Source of the DNA: a virus
Reading direction: 5' to 3' (one strand)
IMG/VR virus record: IMGVR_UViG_3300030518_000471
Location: 1 to 31,971 of that record
DNA length: 31,971 bases
Each line of letters starts with the position of its first letter. Position 1 is the stretch's first letter. Both the position numbers and the translations under genes were made by a program. A model generated the notes under the pieces. The model saw only the letters and a program-made list of their open reading frames with translations. It was not told the origin of the DNA and searched no databases. Positions 1,196-28,056 of this stretch are shown here, piece after piece.

Positions 1196-2804
1196 CCTCG
1201 ACGCGTCCTTCGCCTGGGCGCAGAAGCAGTTCGTGGCCAAGATCCAAGAGGAGTACAACGCCGGCCGTCCCATCCGGATCATCGTGCTCAAGGGCCGGCA
1301 GTTGGGGATCTCCACCGCCTCGGAGGCCGTGCTGTTCAACTGGTGTTTCATGCACCCCGGAGCCAACGCCCTGGTGCTGTCGAAGTCCACCGCCGACTCC
1401 GAGTACCTGTTCGAGATGACCAAGCTAATGTGGGACAACTGGCCCTTCCGGGAGCTCTTCACCGAGTCCCACAAGTCGGTGAGGCGTCTGTCGTGGAAGG
1501 AGACCGGCTCCTCCATGAAGATCGCCACCGCCAAGGGCAAGGAGGTGGGGCGCGGGCAGACCATCCACGCCGTCCACTGCTCCGAGGTCGCCTTCTACCC
1601 CGACCCCGAGGGGCTGATGACCGCCCTCAAGCAGGCCGTCCCCGACAAGCCGGGCACCGTCATCCTCCTCGAGTCCACCGCCAACGGAGCGGGGAACTGG
1701 TTCCACCAGGAGTGGTTCGCTGCCAAGGCCGGGGAGTCGGATTTCATCCCGCTCTTCTTCCCCTGGTATCTCCATGAGGAGTACTCCTTCCCCGACACTA
1801 CCCTCACCTACGACCGCCTCACCAAGGAGGAGCGGGACCTGATGGAGAAGTTCGAGGGGCTGGGCATCCCTCAACTGGCCTGGCGGCGGTGGTGCATCCG
1901 GAACAAGTGCAACAACGACGAGGACGTGTTCCACCAGGAGTATCCCTGTGACGACCACGAAGCCTTTCTGACCACCGGTAGGAACATCTTCCCCCTCGAC
2001 AAGCTGGACGCCTGCTACGAGCCACGGAACGGGGCTCAGGGCTACCTCAGCCCCCTGCGGGACCCGACCAAGCGACAGGGCCAGTTCTTCAAGTCCAAGG
2101 ACGGGGAACTCCGGATCTTCAAGCACCCCCACGACCGGCAGAAGTACGTCATCGCCGGGGACCCGACCCGGACGACATGGGGAGACCCGGCGTGTATCCA
2201 GGTGCTCAACCGCTACACCTTCGAGCAGTGTGCCGTCTGGCACGGCCATGTCGAGCCGGCCGAGTTCGCCGACCGTCTCGCCGAGCTCGGCTACTACTAC
2301 AACACCGCCACGGTGAACTGCGAGATCGAGGGCGGGGGTCTGGCGACCATCGCCATCCTCAAGGACAAGATGTTCTACCCCGACGTGTGGCGCTACCGGC
2401 AGATGGACCGGATGCCCGGACAGGTCACCAACTCTTTCGGGTGGTCGATGAACTGGCAGCGCAAGCAGATGGCGGTGGCCTTCGTCATCGACTGCCTCGG
2501 CCAGGGGATGTTGAAGATCCACGACGAGAAGACCTACGAGCAGATGGCCAACTATGTCTCGCTCAAGTACGGGGAGTTGGGGCCGGCCTCGGAGAAGGGG
2601 AACGACGACGCGGTGACCTCCCTGGCTATCGCTGTAGCCACGATCCGCATGGAGTTAGACTCGGCCCGTGACCCCATGGAGATGTTCCAAAGCTACAGCC
2701 TCGAGCTGGAAGGGAACGTGTTCAAGCCACCGGTCGCTGAGGTATCCAACACGAATGACATCGGCGGAATGCCGTTCTGGCAGATGAACGAGGACGACTA
2801 CTGA
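1098..2804 (+). CDS. terL: Terminase large subunit (ATPase-nuclease), 568 aa
   Basis: Packaging motor that cuts concatemeric DNA and pumps it into the prohead through the portal. The ATPase half shows a Walker A-like KGRQLGIST (about 65-73), a Walker B with acidic end HAVHCSEVAF (about 156-166), and the coupling motif LLESTANG (about 190-197). The C-terminal RNase H-like nuclease shows AGDPTRTTWGDP (about 353-364), CEIEGGG (about 408) and NDDAVTS (about 502), supplying the expected acidic metal ligands. Length is typical. The start is GTG at 1098 with GGGGAG about 11 bases upstream; ATG at 1155 would remove 19 residues and lacks a clear ribosome site. Its TGA overlaps the next ATG. Confidence 0.95.
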   Translation: MTTTLQGKTQLRLSPLIRQMKIKTKDLSVEPLDLDASFAWAQKQFVAKIQEEYNAGRPIRIIVLKGRQLGISTASEAVLFNWCFMHPGANALVLSKSTADSEYLFEMTKLMWDNWPFRELFTESHKSVRRLSWKETGSSMKIATAKGKEVGRGQTIHAVHCSEVAFYPDPEGLMTALKQAVPDKPGTVILLESTANGAGNWFHQEWFAAKAGESDFIPLFFPWYLHEEYSFPDTTLTYDRLTKEERDLMEKFEGLGIPQLAWRRWCIRNKCNNDEDVFHQEYPCDDHEAFLTTGRNIFPLDKLDACYEPRNGAQGYLSPLRDPTKRQGQFFKSKDGELRIFKHPHDRQKYVIAGDPTRTTWGDPACIQVLNRYTFEQCAVWHGHVEPAEFADRLAELGYYYNTATVNCEIEGGGLATIAILKDKMFYPDVWRYRQMDRMPGQVTNSFGWSMNWQRKQMAVAFVIDCLGQGMLKIHDEKTYEQMANYVSLKYGELGPASEKGNDDAVTSLAIAVATIRMELDSARDPMEMFQSYSLELEGNVFKPPVAEVSNTNDIGGMPFWQMNEDDY

Positions 2805-3145
2805 TGGCCGTGGCCTACGCCTACCGATGCGACGGATGCGGGACGAGCATCGAGTCGAACGTTCGTGGGGACCGCGTCCCCTGTTCCTGTGGGCTCACCG
2901 CCTCCCGGCGGTTCCGGTTCTCCATGTCCACCTCGTTCCGGGAGCACTTCAACGTGGCCACCGGGCAGTACGTCAACAACAACCGAGAGTTCACCGACGC
3001 CTTGAAGCGGGCATCCGAGGAGCAGACGGCCCGGACGGGGCTGGAAGTGAACCTCGAGCCGGTGGACTACTCGGACAAGGCAGCTCTCGGGGTCACCGAC
3101 GAAGGGCTTGACGAGACGGCCAAAGCACGGTTCGATTCGGTATGA
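2804..3145 (+). CDS. FmdB-like zinc-ribbon protein, 113 aa
   Basis: The N-terminal 30 residues contain a zinc-ribbon pattern, Y-x-C-x-x-C-G at about 8-13 and P-C-S-C-G at about 26-30, as in FmdB-type regulatory ribbons. The rest is polar and probably helical. It overlaps terL by one base (TGATG) and the portal gene by four (ATGA), so it is translated with the packaging and portal proteins. A ribbon protein in this slot could be a connector or packaging accessory factor, or a nucleic-acid-binding regulator. The ribbon is seen directly; the role is inference. Confidence 0.7.
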   Translation: MAVAYAYRCDGCGTSIESNVRGDRVPCSCGLTASRRFRFSMSTSFREHFNVATGQYVNNNREFTDALKRASEEQTARTGLEVNLEPVDYSDKAALGVTDEGLDETAKARFDSV

Positions 3146-4983
3146 CCCTCACCCAGACCGACCCCACGGGGTACGACGAGTTGGATGAGTTTGAGCTGAC
3201 CGGCCGGCTCATGGAGCTCTACCAGGAGGCCAAGAACGCCAAGCAGCGGCGGCACGCCGAGTGGACCAAGAACTACATGCTGACGTTCAACCGGTCCTCG
3301 GGGTCCAACACCCGTCCAGGGTCTGGGGTACGGGACTCGGAGATCTACCCGATCATCCGAAACCGCATCGCCTGGATGACGGACCAGAAGGTCGAGTTCA
3401 ACGTCACCCCCGCGGTCGACCCCTTCTCCGAGTTCGCTGACCACGAAGCCGCCATCGGTCACCACATGGAGTTGATCCTGCAATCCAACTGGCAGGTCCA
3501 GGGGTGGTTCAAGCAGCAGTCCCTTCTCCTGTGGGATTCGGCCATCTGCGGAGCGGGGATCGCCAAGGCGGTGTGGGACTCCGGGCTGGACGGTGGGATC
3601 GGCAACGTCTCCTTCCAGCGGCGTGACCCGTGGAAGATTTACCCCAACCCCGAAGCCACCTCGGACGAAGACCTGATGTACCTGTTCGAGGTCAACCGCA
3701 TGACCTACGACGAGATCCAGCGGAAGTTCCCCGACACCAGCCGGGACCTGATCGAGATGGCCGTTGCCCAGGGGGACACCGGGGACTACGCCAAGCGGCC
3801 CTCGGACACCTCGGGGATGACCGACCGCATGGTGGTCCCCGGCAACATCCCCGGCAACGAAGGCACTCCCTGGGGCCGGCCGGGACAGGGGACACAGACC
3901 AGCGCCTCCAACGTCCTGACGGGCGGGGTGAACGTCTACGAGTGCTGGATCCGGGAGAACGTCGAGACGGTCAGGGAGACCACCGATCCTCTCCACGGTG
4001 AGGACGAGAACGTGGTCTACGACCAGTGGAGGGTGGTGGTGTTCACCGGCTCCCACGTGCTGCTGGACACCACCGCCGAAGACCTGTGGCAGCACAACCG
4101 CCACCCGTATGCCCGGTACGTCGATGACGAGACCGGCGAGTTCTGGCCCGTCCCCATCGTCTCCTACCTCGCCCCCTGCCAGGTGGCCATTGACCGCCTG
4201 CTCGCCTCCATGCAGTCCAACGCCGAGCTCACCGGCAACCCCGTGTTCATGGACGTGGCCAACTCCGGTCTCGGGCGGACGCAGATCGTCAACCGAGCCG
4301 GGCTTCGGCTGCAGATGGACTCTGCGGTGGCCAACACCAACGGGAGCAAGCCCGGATGGCTCAACCCCCCGCAGATGAGCGGCGATGTCATGCAACTCAT
4401 CAACCTCTGGCGACAGATCATGGAGAACATCTCCGGTCTGTCCGGTCCGCAGAAGGGTGCGCTCGCCACCGGACGGCAGGCTCAGCAGACGGTCCAGTCC
4501 GCCCAGGAGGCCGGGTTCGTCTCCATCCGGTCATCGGTGAGGAACATGGAAGTCACCCTCACCCGGATCGGCACGCTCCTCTGCCACCTCATCGCCCAGA
4601 ACTACACCACCCCTCGAGTGGTTGCGATCATCGGCGACAAGGGCACGGAGACCTCCCTGCTTCTCGCCGCCCGCCACTTCTACTCCCCGAGCCGGAACTT
4701 CGAGACCAAGAAGTACGACATGACCCCCCTGGTCTTCGCCCTCAACGTCTCCGCCGGCAGTGACCGTCCGACCTCCCGACAAGCCCGCATCGCAGAAGCC
4801 GACGCCCTGTTCGCCATGAAGGCGGTGGACCAGCAGTACGTGTTGCAGGCTCACCAGGTAGCGGACTGGAAGGACATCGAGGCCCGCATGGAGCAGAAGC
4901 AGATCGCCATCATGGCAGCCGCCGCCCAGGCGCAGGGCGCGAAGGGACAACCGAAAGGACCTGGCACAGGACACGCTCACTGA
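3142..4983 (+). CDS. Portal protein, 613 aa
   Basis: Forms the dodecameric channel at the capsid vertex through which DNA enters and leaves and on which the tail is built. Assigned from position after terL, length, and sequence features of the podovirus-type portal family: an N-terminal helical region (LMELYQEAKNAKQRRHAEW), an IYPIIRNRIAWMTDQKVEF segment (about 68-86), DPWKIYPNPEA (about 162), and later SYLAPCQVAIDRLLASMQSN (about 345) followed by a long helical part with NISGLSGPQKGALATGRQAQQ (about 434), the usual stem and crown region. The C-terminus is rich in Ala, Gln and Lys. It starts in ATGA overlap with the zinc-ribbon gene and is followed by a 486-base gap with no convincing gene. 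Confidence 0.85.
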   Translation: MTLTQTDPTGYDELDEFELTGRLMELYQEAKNAKQRRHAEWTKNYMLTFNRSSGSNTRPGSGVRDSEIYPIIRNRIAWMTDQKVEFNVTPAVDPFSEFADHEAAIGHHMELILQSNWQVQGWFKQQSLLLWDSAICGAGIAKAVWDSGLDGGIGNVSFQRRDPWKIYPNPEATSDEDLMYLFEVNRMTYDEIQRKFPDTSRDLIEMAVAQGDTGDYAKRPSDTSGMTDRMVVPGNIPGNEGTPWGRPGQGTQTSASNVLTGGVNVYECWIRENVETVRETTDPLHGEDENVVYDQWRVVVFTGSHVLLDTTAEDLWQHNRHPYARYVDDETGEFWPVPIVSYLAPCQVAIDRLLASMQSNAELTGNPVFMDVANSGLGRTQIVNRAGLRLQMDSAVANTNGSKPGWLNPPQMSGDVMQLINLWRQIMENISGLSGPQKGALATGRQAQQTVQSAQEAGFVSIRSSVRNMEVTLTRIGTLLCHLIAQNYTTPRVVAIIGDKGTETSLLLAARHFYSPSRNFETKKYDMTPLVFALNVSAGSDRPTSRQARIAEADALFAMKAVDQQYVLQAHQVADWKDIEARMEQKQIAIMAAAAQAQGAKGQPKGPGTGHAH

Positions 4984-5469
4984 CGGCCAGCTTCTGCAAA
5001 TGCGAGACCCCCAACCGACTGCACCGGAAGGGGGTCCCTGTGAGACAGTGAAACAACAAGAGGTTTCGTGTCTCATCGTATCACGGTCTCCGGTTAGGTC
5101 AACGGATGGAGTACCCGTCGTAGGGCCTTTGGTTCGCGCCCACCGATACGGTGAAAATGCTCAGAGCTGGAAGATGCTCGATCCAGGCAGTCCTGGCGCG
5201 AAAGCGGTGTTTGTTGCTGTCCTGAGAAATGGATGAGGGATCTCGGGATCACTGTGACCAGAGCGAAGCTTCCGTTGAAAGGCACCGCCGTTGGCGGCTG
5301 ACGCACTTCCTCCTTCGTCGGAAGCTTGTCCACTCACCGCCGCGAGAGTCGGTCGCACTGGTGCGCCGGTATCCACCGACCGGATGGCAACCCGCAGCGA
5401 AGCGGAGGGGCGGCAGCCGGCGAAGCCGGAATGCTTGTAATCGAATCACCACCGTGTAAGTATCTTCCC
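4984..5469 (+). ncRNA. Candidate large structured non-coding RNA
   Basis: The only gene-free stretch above 300 bases; no reading frame in it looks like protein. It is dense in perfect short stems. Pairs found by eye: 5006-5012 with 5030-5036 (7 bp); 5041-5047 with 5069-5075, continuing inside as 5049-5054 with 5063-5068; 5141-5145 with 5149-5153; 5164-5167 with 5176-5179; 5183-5187 with 5192-5196; 5197-5199 with 5204-5206 closing a GAAA tetraloop; 5266-5273 with 5320-5327 enclosing 5285-5289 with 5293-5297; 5354-5357 with 5362-5365; 5366-5370 with 5379-5383; 5392-5395 with 5402-5405; 5417-5421 with 5425-5429 closing a GAA loop. Hairpins in series around a longer-range stem suggest an ornate RNA rather than one terminator. 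The plus strand is chosen because the GNRA-type loop and neighbouring genes lie there. Phage RNAs of the ROOL and GOLLD kind are comparable in setting, but I cannot match it to any family. Exact ends are unknown. Confidence 0.5.
5435..5462 (+). promoter_or_regulatory. Candidate leaderless-type promoter
   Basis: TTGTAA at 5435-5440 and TAAGTA at 5457-5462 are separated by 16 bases, and the second box ends 7 bases before the ATG at 5470. There is no Shine-Dalgarno sequence before that ATG. This matches the spacing expected for a leaderless actinobacterial transcript beginning at or next to the start codon. The -10 match is imperfect, so confidence is low. Confidence 0.28.
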
Positions 5470-5652
5470 ATGACCCAGAACGGCAGGCCCGAGATCACCG
5501 ACACCGGCGCTCGAGTGCGGGGTCAGGCGACGGACGGCTACGCCCCTCCCGGTCGGAACTTCCCCACCTTCGGGCGGGGGACCACCCAGCACCTGTGTGA
5601 CCCGTTCGAGATGCAGGATCTCGTTCTGGACGAGGTCGAGGACGACGACTGA
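5470..5652 (+). CDS. Hypothetical small protein, 60 aa
   Basis: Not recognised. The product has a polar N-terminus, a central Gly/Pro/Phe-containing segment ([15 protein letters not shown]) and an acidic end (DEVEDDD). The start is placed at ATG 5470, after the hairpin-rich gap; the frame is open further upstream but that part lies in the structured region and does not look like protein. No ribosome site precedes it, and a promoter-like pair sits 7 bases upstream, so it may be leaderless. It ends in TGATG overlap with the next gene, opening the second head-gene block. Confidence 0.6.
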
Positions 5653-5770: not shown

Positions 5771-5962
5771 GTGCCACTCAAGTCGGGCTCGTCCCGTTCC
5801 ACGGTCTCCTCGAACATCTCCGAGATGGTCAGGTCTGGACATCCGCAGAAGCAGGCGGTCGCCGCCTCTCTGTCGAATGCCCGAAAGCATCCGAGATCGA
5901 AAGGGGGTGGAACAATGGCCCGTCACAGCAAGCGCGGTTCCAAGCGTCACGGCCGGAAGTAG
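5771..5962 (+). CDS. Small conserved-type phage protein, 63 aa
   Basis: Starts at GTG 5771 with [20 protein letters not shown], followed by [19 protein letters not shown]. This resembles a widespread small phage protein with the pattern PLKSGKS...ISSNI-E--xSG-P--QA-AIAL, usually in head gene clusters and of unknown function. The last 23 residues are Lys/Arg/His-rich. It begins 5 bases after the previous stop with no clear ribosome site, so it is probably coupled. A strong ribosome site inside the gene precedes an in-frame ATG at 5915 that would give only the 15-residue basic tail. Confidence 0.72.
5900..5917 (+). promoter_or_regulatory. Internal ribosome binding site and in-frame ATG
   Basis: AAAGGGGG at 5900-5907 lies 7 bases before an ATG at 5915, in the same frame as the 63-residue gene. 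Initiation here would produce a separate 15-residue Arg/Lys/His-rich peptide ([15 protein letters not shown]). This is better ribosome-site spacing than the GTG start of the whole gene has. Confidence 0.35.
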
Positions 5963-5974
5963 TCGGCAGTAGTT

Positions 5975-27150: not shown

Positions 27151-28056
27151 GTGACCCCGGGACACGGCCCCGTGTTTCCGTTCACACCGACCCCTGACCC
27201 CACCCCTTCACCGACACCCCAACCGAGACTTTTTGACGTGAACGGTGGGCTGACGAACGCCGACGACATCGTGGCCCGAGCGATTGAGATTCACCACCCG
27301 GCCAAGACGTTCGTGCTCTCGTCGGGTGGGAACGATTCGATGGTGCTGCTGGACTACGCCCGCAAGAACTGGGGGTTTGATGCCGTGGTGCATGTGAACA
27401 CGGGGACAGGAGTGCGTGAGCGGGGCGTTGACATCACCAGCCAGTTCCTAGCCGACTACTGCGCTGACCTGGGACTACCGCTCATCGTCCTGCATCCACC
27501 CAAGTCCTACGAGGAACTGTTCCTAGACGACCCCATCATCGACGGCCTGCCGGGACCAGGGATGCACCACATCGCCTACAACCGGCTCAAAGAGCGGGCG
27601 CTGAGGGTGTTCGTCAAGGAGCAGAAGAACCACTGGCGGGACCGCATCATGTTCCTGACCGGCATCCGAGAGCAGGAGTCCACCATCCGCATGGGCTACC
27701 AGGAGTCGATCATCGACCGTGTGGGCGCACAGGTGTGGGTGAACCCCATCTACCGCTGGACCGACGCCGAGATGGCCGAGTACCGCCAGGTCCACAACCT
27801 TGCGCTGAACCCCGTAGCCGAGCATCTCCACATCTCAGGCGAATGCCTGTGTGGCTGCTTCGCTAAGCCCGGCGAGCTGGACGAGATCCGGTTCTTCTTC
27901 CCAGAGACAGCCGCCCGCATCGAAGGTTGGCAGAAGCGGGCCGCAGACAAAGGACTCACCTACTGCACCTGGGGGCAACGACGAGGACGTGACGACCCCG
28001 AAGGGATGCGTATGTGCAAGCAATGCGTCGGCCAGATGGAGATATTCGATGTCTGA
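27151..28056 (+). CDS. PAPS reductase-like ATP pyrophosphatase, 301 aa
   Basis: The N-type ATP pyrophosphatase P-loop SSGGNDSM is at about residues 56-63, preceded by the strand KTFVL and followed by a helix and HVNTGTGVRE. These are features of the PAPS reductase, DndC and related family that activate or handle sulfur using adenylated substrates. Later motifs are FLTGIREQESTIRMG (about 169), IYRWTDAEMAEY (about 197) and a C-terminal Cys group (CLCGCF about 231, YCTW, MCKQC about 288) that could bind an iron-sulfur cluster or zinc. GTG start with GGAG six bases upstream; the first 25 residues are Pro/Thr-rich. No other sulfur-metabolism or DNA phosphorothioation gene is seen, so the substrate is unknown. 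Confidence 0.75.
   Translation: MTPGHGPVFPFTPTPDPTPSPTPQPRLFDVNGGLTNADDIVARAIEIHHPAKTFVLSSGGNDSMVLLDYARKNWGFDAVVHVNTGTGVRERGVDITSQFLADYCADLGLPLIVLHPPKSYEELFLDDPIIDGLPGPGMHHIAYNRLKERALRVFVKEQKNHWRDRIMFLTGIREQESTIRMGYQESIIDRVGAQVWVNPIYRWTDAEMAEYRQVHNLALNPVAEHLHISGECLCGCFAKPGELDEIRFFFPETAARIEGWQKRAADKGLTYCTWGQRRGRDDPEGMRMCKQCVGQMEIFDV

Follow-up and report, generated by a model that had tools for sequence, protein, structure and literature searches.

Behind the portal gene of a phage DNA of 31,971 nucleotides (the whole stretch analysed, here called the window) lies an insert that, judged by comparison with its homologues, encodes a structured RNA with a conserved double hairpin, the shape of which is kept while the sequence diverges. 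An undescribed structured RNA had been proposed at this place by a sequence-only reading, and the proposal is now supported by compensatory changes in seven independent homologous sequences and by the lack of an Rfam match. The RNA may represent a new family of structured noncoding phage RNA of about 400-470 nt, transcribed from the + strand, accessory and probably trans-acting, a description for and against which we find the balance about equal.

Gene order and extent of the insert

The head operon of the window runs from the terminase large subunit through a P22-like portal and small genes to the major head protein, and the insert fills the interval between the portal stop codon and the next gene:

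3142-4983, + strand: portal gene, P22-like (PF16510, E 1.9e-28; phrog_156, E 3.8e-35)
4984-5469, + strand: whole insert, portal stop to next gene, 486 bases
5470-5652, + strand: small conserved head-operon gene of 60 aa, with no Pfam family match

Within the insert the RNA is estimated to extend from about 5000 to about 5430. Homologues of the 60-aa gene come after the insert in lineages L003, L008 and L019, and in L007 and L010 a membrane-protein gene is placed between the insert and the small head gene; RNA-lacking relatives, e.g. L023, have only about 18 nt at the insert position. Tiny, very basic peptides (window 5916-5963, with homologues such as those in L022, L023 and L052) recur between portal and capsid throughout the phage family, RNA present or not. 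Far downstream, at window 27151-28056, a gene resembling phosphoadenosine phosphosulfate reductase (phrog_424, E 5.6e-21) may be an auxiliary metabolic gene.

The insert had been said to hold no credible protein, and this is borne out. Its longest + strand frames are 78 and 76 aa, no frame is conserved among the homologues, and translated comparison with these shows no frame-specific conservation for the + or the - frames. Similarity to the homologues is spread equally over all frames of both strands, as in similarity at the DNA level, and the insert is therefore considered noncoding.

Homologous inserts

Homologues were collected via portal relatives and by a motif search in viral contigs, and an insert is found at the same place in seven independent lineages, the window included, the six others being L003, L007, L008, L010, L019 and L049 (L004 and L005 read the same as L003, and L009 is grouped with L007). 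Strong divergence is reflected in a BLASTN alignment of the window with L010 that spans only 49 nt; a block of 33-36 nt, holding the adjacent hairpins Pa and Pb, is still alignable across the homologues. RNAalifold over the whole insert gave no convincing global fold. BLASTN of four members yielded short, hairpin-sized Microbacterium phage matches or nothing among annotated phages, and no match among plasmids. A portal search in annotated phages found none for the window portal and a 21% match for that of L049, and neither a relative nor the motif was found in genome contigs. A looser motif scan of viral contigs gave eighteen new matches that are read as chance, being mostly coding-like sequence.

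The conserved double hairpin

5203-5218, + strand: hairpin Pa, NGCG/UGCN with a purine-rich loop; 28/28 cells paired
5219-5238, + strand: hairpin Pb, GNNC[UGAGARAU]GNNU; 28/28 cells paired in a gapless alignment

Over the double hairpin (5203-5238) all 56 of 56 cells are paired in the seven sequences, ten of them changed on both sides; the joint alignment of Pa and Pb was fitted to the structure, that of Pb was not. Seven cells of Pb are changed on both sides, and one of its pairs appears as G-C, C-G, A-U and U-A. When the Pb partner is slid by one column pairing falls to 46%, and column shuffles, with all block positions searched, gave a fully paired covarying helix of at least 4 bp in 0 of 20,000 trials. 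The octaloop UGAGARAU of Pb is near-invariant, with GAGG next. The outer pair of Pa is of C-G, U-A and A-U types, and the Pa loop is longer in the window than in the homologues. A covariance model matches at Pa with 36.2 bits, the E-values of such home-made models being rough. A second model match, at window 2763-2793, was rejected as terminase coding sequence with a broken octaloop.

The structure is assigned to + strand RNA because its G-U pairs fit that strand only, and the antisense strand breaks pairs (21/28 Pb cells paired). These conserved G-U pairs, together with the conserved unpaired loops, speak against a DNA-level element such as an origin, a cos or pac site or a set of recombination hairpins; the insert is rich in hairpins and apparently exchanged between lineages at one site, which would suit such an element, but we consider this explanation very improbable.

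Outer helices and single-sequence structure

The outer and 3' helices of the RNA are partly resolved:

5006-5036, + strand: P1, 5' hairpin GACCCCC (5006-5012) / GGGGGUC (5030-5036)
5114-5125, + strand: P3, small hairpin CCC/GGG around GUCGUA, read directly from the sequences
5133-5202, + strand: P4 arm, UUCGCGCC (5133-5140) with GGCGCGAA (5195-5202)
5285-5297, + strand: P8, hairpin CCGCC-GUU-GGCGG

Covariation is found in P1, with 46/49 cells paired and four both-side changes in seven sequences (permutation fraction 0.0024), and in P8, with 25/25 cells paired and six both-side changes in five sequences (permutation fraction 0.008). P3 reads CUC-GUCAGAC-GAG in most homologues, with a U-A to C-G double change. 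P4 has 25/25 cells paired over five inner pairs in five sequences and one double change, which is statistically weak (0.20); it is not seen in L008 and is different in L019.

Structure in the single sequence is barely above chance, as follows from an ordinary folding energy and a marginal excess of hairpins. Where at least a dozen perfect short stems had been noted at the outset, 12 hairpins are counted with stems of at least 4 bp, but their excess over shuffled sequence (mean 8.1, p 0.07) is marginal in this greedy count of perfect stems with loops of 3-8. Hairpins with stems of at least 5 bp number six against a shuffled mean of 2.6 (p 0.02), and none in the insert reaches 6 bp by the same count. 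The longer 8-bp stem 5266-5273/5320-5327 exists in the window but is not conserved as such. The yardstick fixed beforehand was a folding energy better than that of dinucleotide-shuffled sequence, and by it the finding would have failed, the + strand of 4984-5480 having an ordinary energy (z -0.10) and the - strand a mildly low one (z -1.89). This test is uninformative in GC-rich DNA, and single-sequence folding energy can miss real RNA in GC-rich genomes; it is on comparative and not on single-sequence evidence that the RNA structure is accepted as real.

Probable transcription of the RNA and of the next gene

5435-5463, + strand: promoter-like TTGTAA-17-AAGTAT, of leaderless type, with 6 nt between it and the following start codon

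Taken alone, the two-hexamer sigma-70 match of this element is not significant. The pattern NANNNT, however, stands 6-7 nt before the ATG of the next gene in 7/7 phages that carry the RNA and in 16/22 that lack it; as background, 22/347 ATGs of the window have it. A -10 placed so close to the ATG is the leaderless promoter layout of Actinobacteria, and its recurrence suggests that the head-gene transcripts may be leaderless across the phage family, with a putative -10 at window 5458-5469 and equivalent positions. Should the next gene be transcribed mainly from this -10, its transcript would not include the RNA, and this would count against a leader riboswitch. We accordingly regard it as improbable that the RNA is a leader, riboswitch or attenuator, acting in cis on the next head gene: it is on the same strand and, in five of the seven members, the small head gene comes immediately after it, but the main transcript from the leaderless-type -10 would exclude it in all seven, and a different gene comes next in L007 and L010.

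Neither a promoter of its own nor, in the window, a terminator could be found for the RNA; L019 has a terminator-like U-run near the RNA 3' end. The RNA is most simply derived from the terminase-portal transcript. The main rival to a trans-acting RNA is an element acting in cis, either a structured 3' UTR on the terminase-portal mRNA or an insulator between the genes, which would stabilise the upstream transcript or limit read-through into the head-gene promoter. Every member does have a GC-rich hairpin soon after the stop codon of the portal (or of a small downstream gene), the RNA adjoins the conserved promoter-like element, and the U-run of L019 would suit such a role. The conserved loops and double hairpin nevertheless exceed the needs of an insulator, the window has no terminator and most relatives do without the RNA, and we regard a 3' UTR or insulator, in either of these roles, as unlikely but a serious contender.

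Distribution, probable exchange and the cargo slot

Among the loci compared, the RNA behaves as an accessory module, and the slot that it occupies, between the portal gene and the leaderless-type promoter of the next head gene, is variable in content. Distant relatives have the small head gene, or other cargo, directly after the portal, and in a search of 73 capsid-related loci with the double-hairpin model no convincing copy was found except on L049's own contig. At least two changes in RNA presence or absence are forced on the portal tree by well-supported branches. The RNAs of L010 and L049 are 68.6% identical over 341 nt, far more alike than their portals (40% identical), which suggests transfer, and the RNA has probably been exchanged horizontally between phage lineages; repeated loss, with fast change in the window lineage, could still be the alternative.

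Sister phages carry WhiB or HNH endonuclease genes in this post-portal slot. WhiB-like genes soon after the portal are found in L086, L087, L090, L091, L093 and L095 (three of them Pfam-checked), and the post-portal spot is for this reason taken to be a cargo slot; WhiB genes also point to actinobacterial hosts for these uncultured soil phages. A second, different conserved noncoding element occupies the post-portal slot of other sister phages (L081:2474-2763, L082:2911-3211, L088:1820-1963 and L097:2206-2400), where it is 66-86% identical over 130-300 nt, starts with a DnaA-box-like TTATCCACA and may represent a further RNA or else an origin. A tRNA-like sequence, recognised by eye only, lies inside the slot on the reverse strand of L088:1995-2080.

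This distribution bears on two further explanations. The position just after the portal had made a packaging or head-assembly RNA, like the prohead RNA of phi29, attractive, and all seven members do have the RNA close to their portal gene. That idea is now disfavoured, since phages with homologous portal, capsid and other head genes manage without the RNA, an indirect test; no Rfam family is matched either, and such a role is quite improbable. Patchy and apparently mobile as it is, the RNA could be a guide left over from a mobile nuclease of IscB, TnpB or HEARO type, and HNH genes do occur in the same slot of sister phages. No nuclease gene, however, was recognised beside the copies read, HEARO and other Rfam families are not matched, and the structure is conserved without a partner gene, making this the least probable of the explanations considered.

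Proposed role

A trans-acting accessory RNA would make up the 3' end of the terminase-portal transcript, unless it has another promoter, and would then either persist there or be freed as a stable RNA. Its conserved loops may be presented in trans to a protein or an RNA of the host or the phage, with a benefit to the phage that would lie outside general head assembly. A more specific proposal, to which we give slightly less than even credence, is that the RNA belongs to an undescribed, horizontally exchanged class of large RNAs that uses a cargo slot in the head operon of actinobacterial phages and acts in trans via the UGAGARAU loop, possible targets being, for example, the host or the defences of rivals. 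Its function is testable by comparison of presence and absence, because the slot is defined, the RNA is apparently mobile and relatives lack it.

Comparison with known RNA families and systems

The sequence-only reading could match the insert to none of ROOL, GOLLD and the phi29 packaging RNA, and the covariance-model search agrees: no Rfam 15 family reached its gathering score anywhere in the window, and with the threshold relaxed to E 10 for 4900-5560 and to E 5 for the six homologues no relevant match appeared.

HEARO and IscB-type guide RNAs are structured RNAs tied to mobile elements; the insert RNA differs in lacking an Rfam match to them and, by reading of the immediate flanks, any recognised HNH or RuvC nuclease gene beside its copies. 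Small RNAs derived from bacterial 3' UTRs come from the 3' end of an mRNA, a position that the insert RNA shares, although it is much longer, has a conserved internal domain and shows no U-tail in the window. Like the phi29 prohead RNA it is positionally linked to packaging genes, but it has no Rfam packaging-RNA match and is missing from relatives with homologous portals, the portal of this phage being P22-like.

The ROOL and GOLLD RNAs of phages, which are large and structured and have no known function, often lie near tRNA islands and form homo-oligomeric, RNA-only cages; the ROOL RNA described measures 659 nt, and many of the GOLLD RNAs exceed 800 nt (PMC12286853). The resemblance to them that was suggested earlier is one of kind only, no model being matched and no tRNA gene being present in the window (ARAGORN). 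The insert RNA is smaller, at its 400-470 nt, and lies in the head operon and not beside tRNA islands, but like ROOL and GOLLD it is large, structured and phage-encoded. Few RNAs of this kind are known from phages and most of them lack an explanation; this one is backed by covariation.
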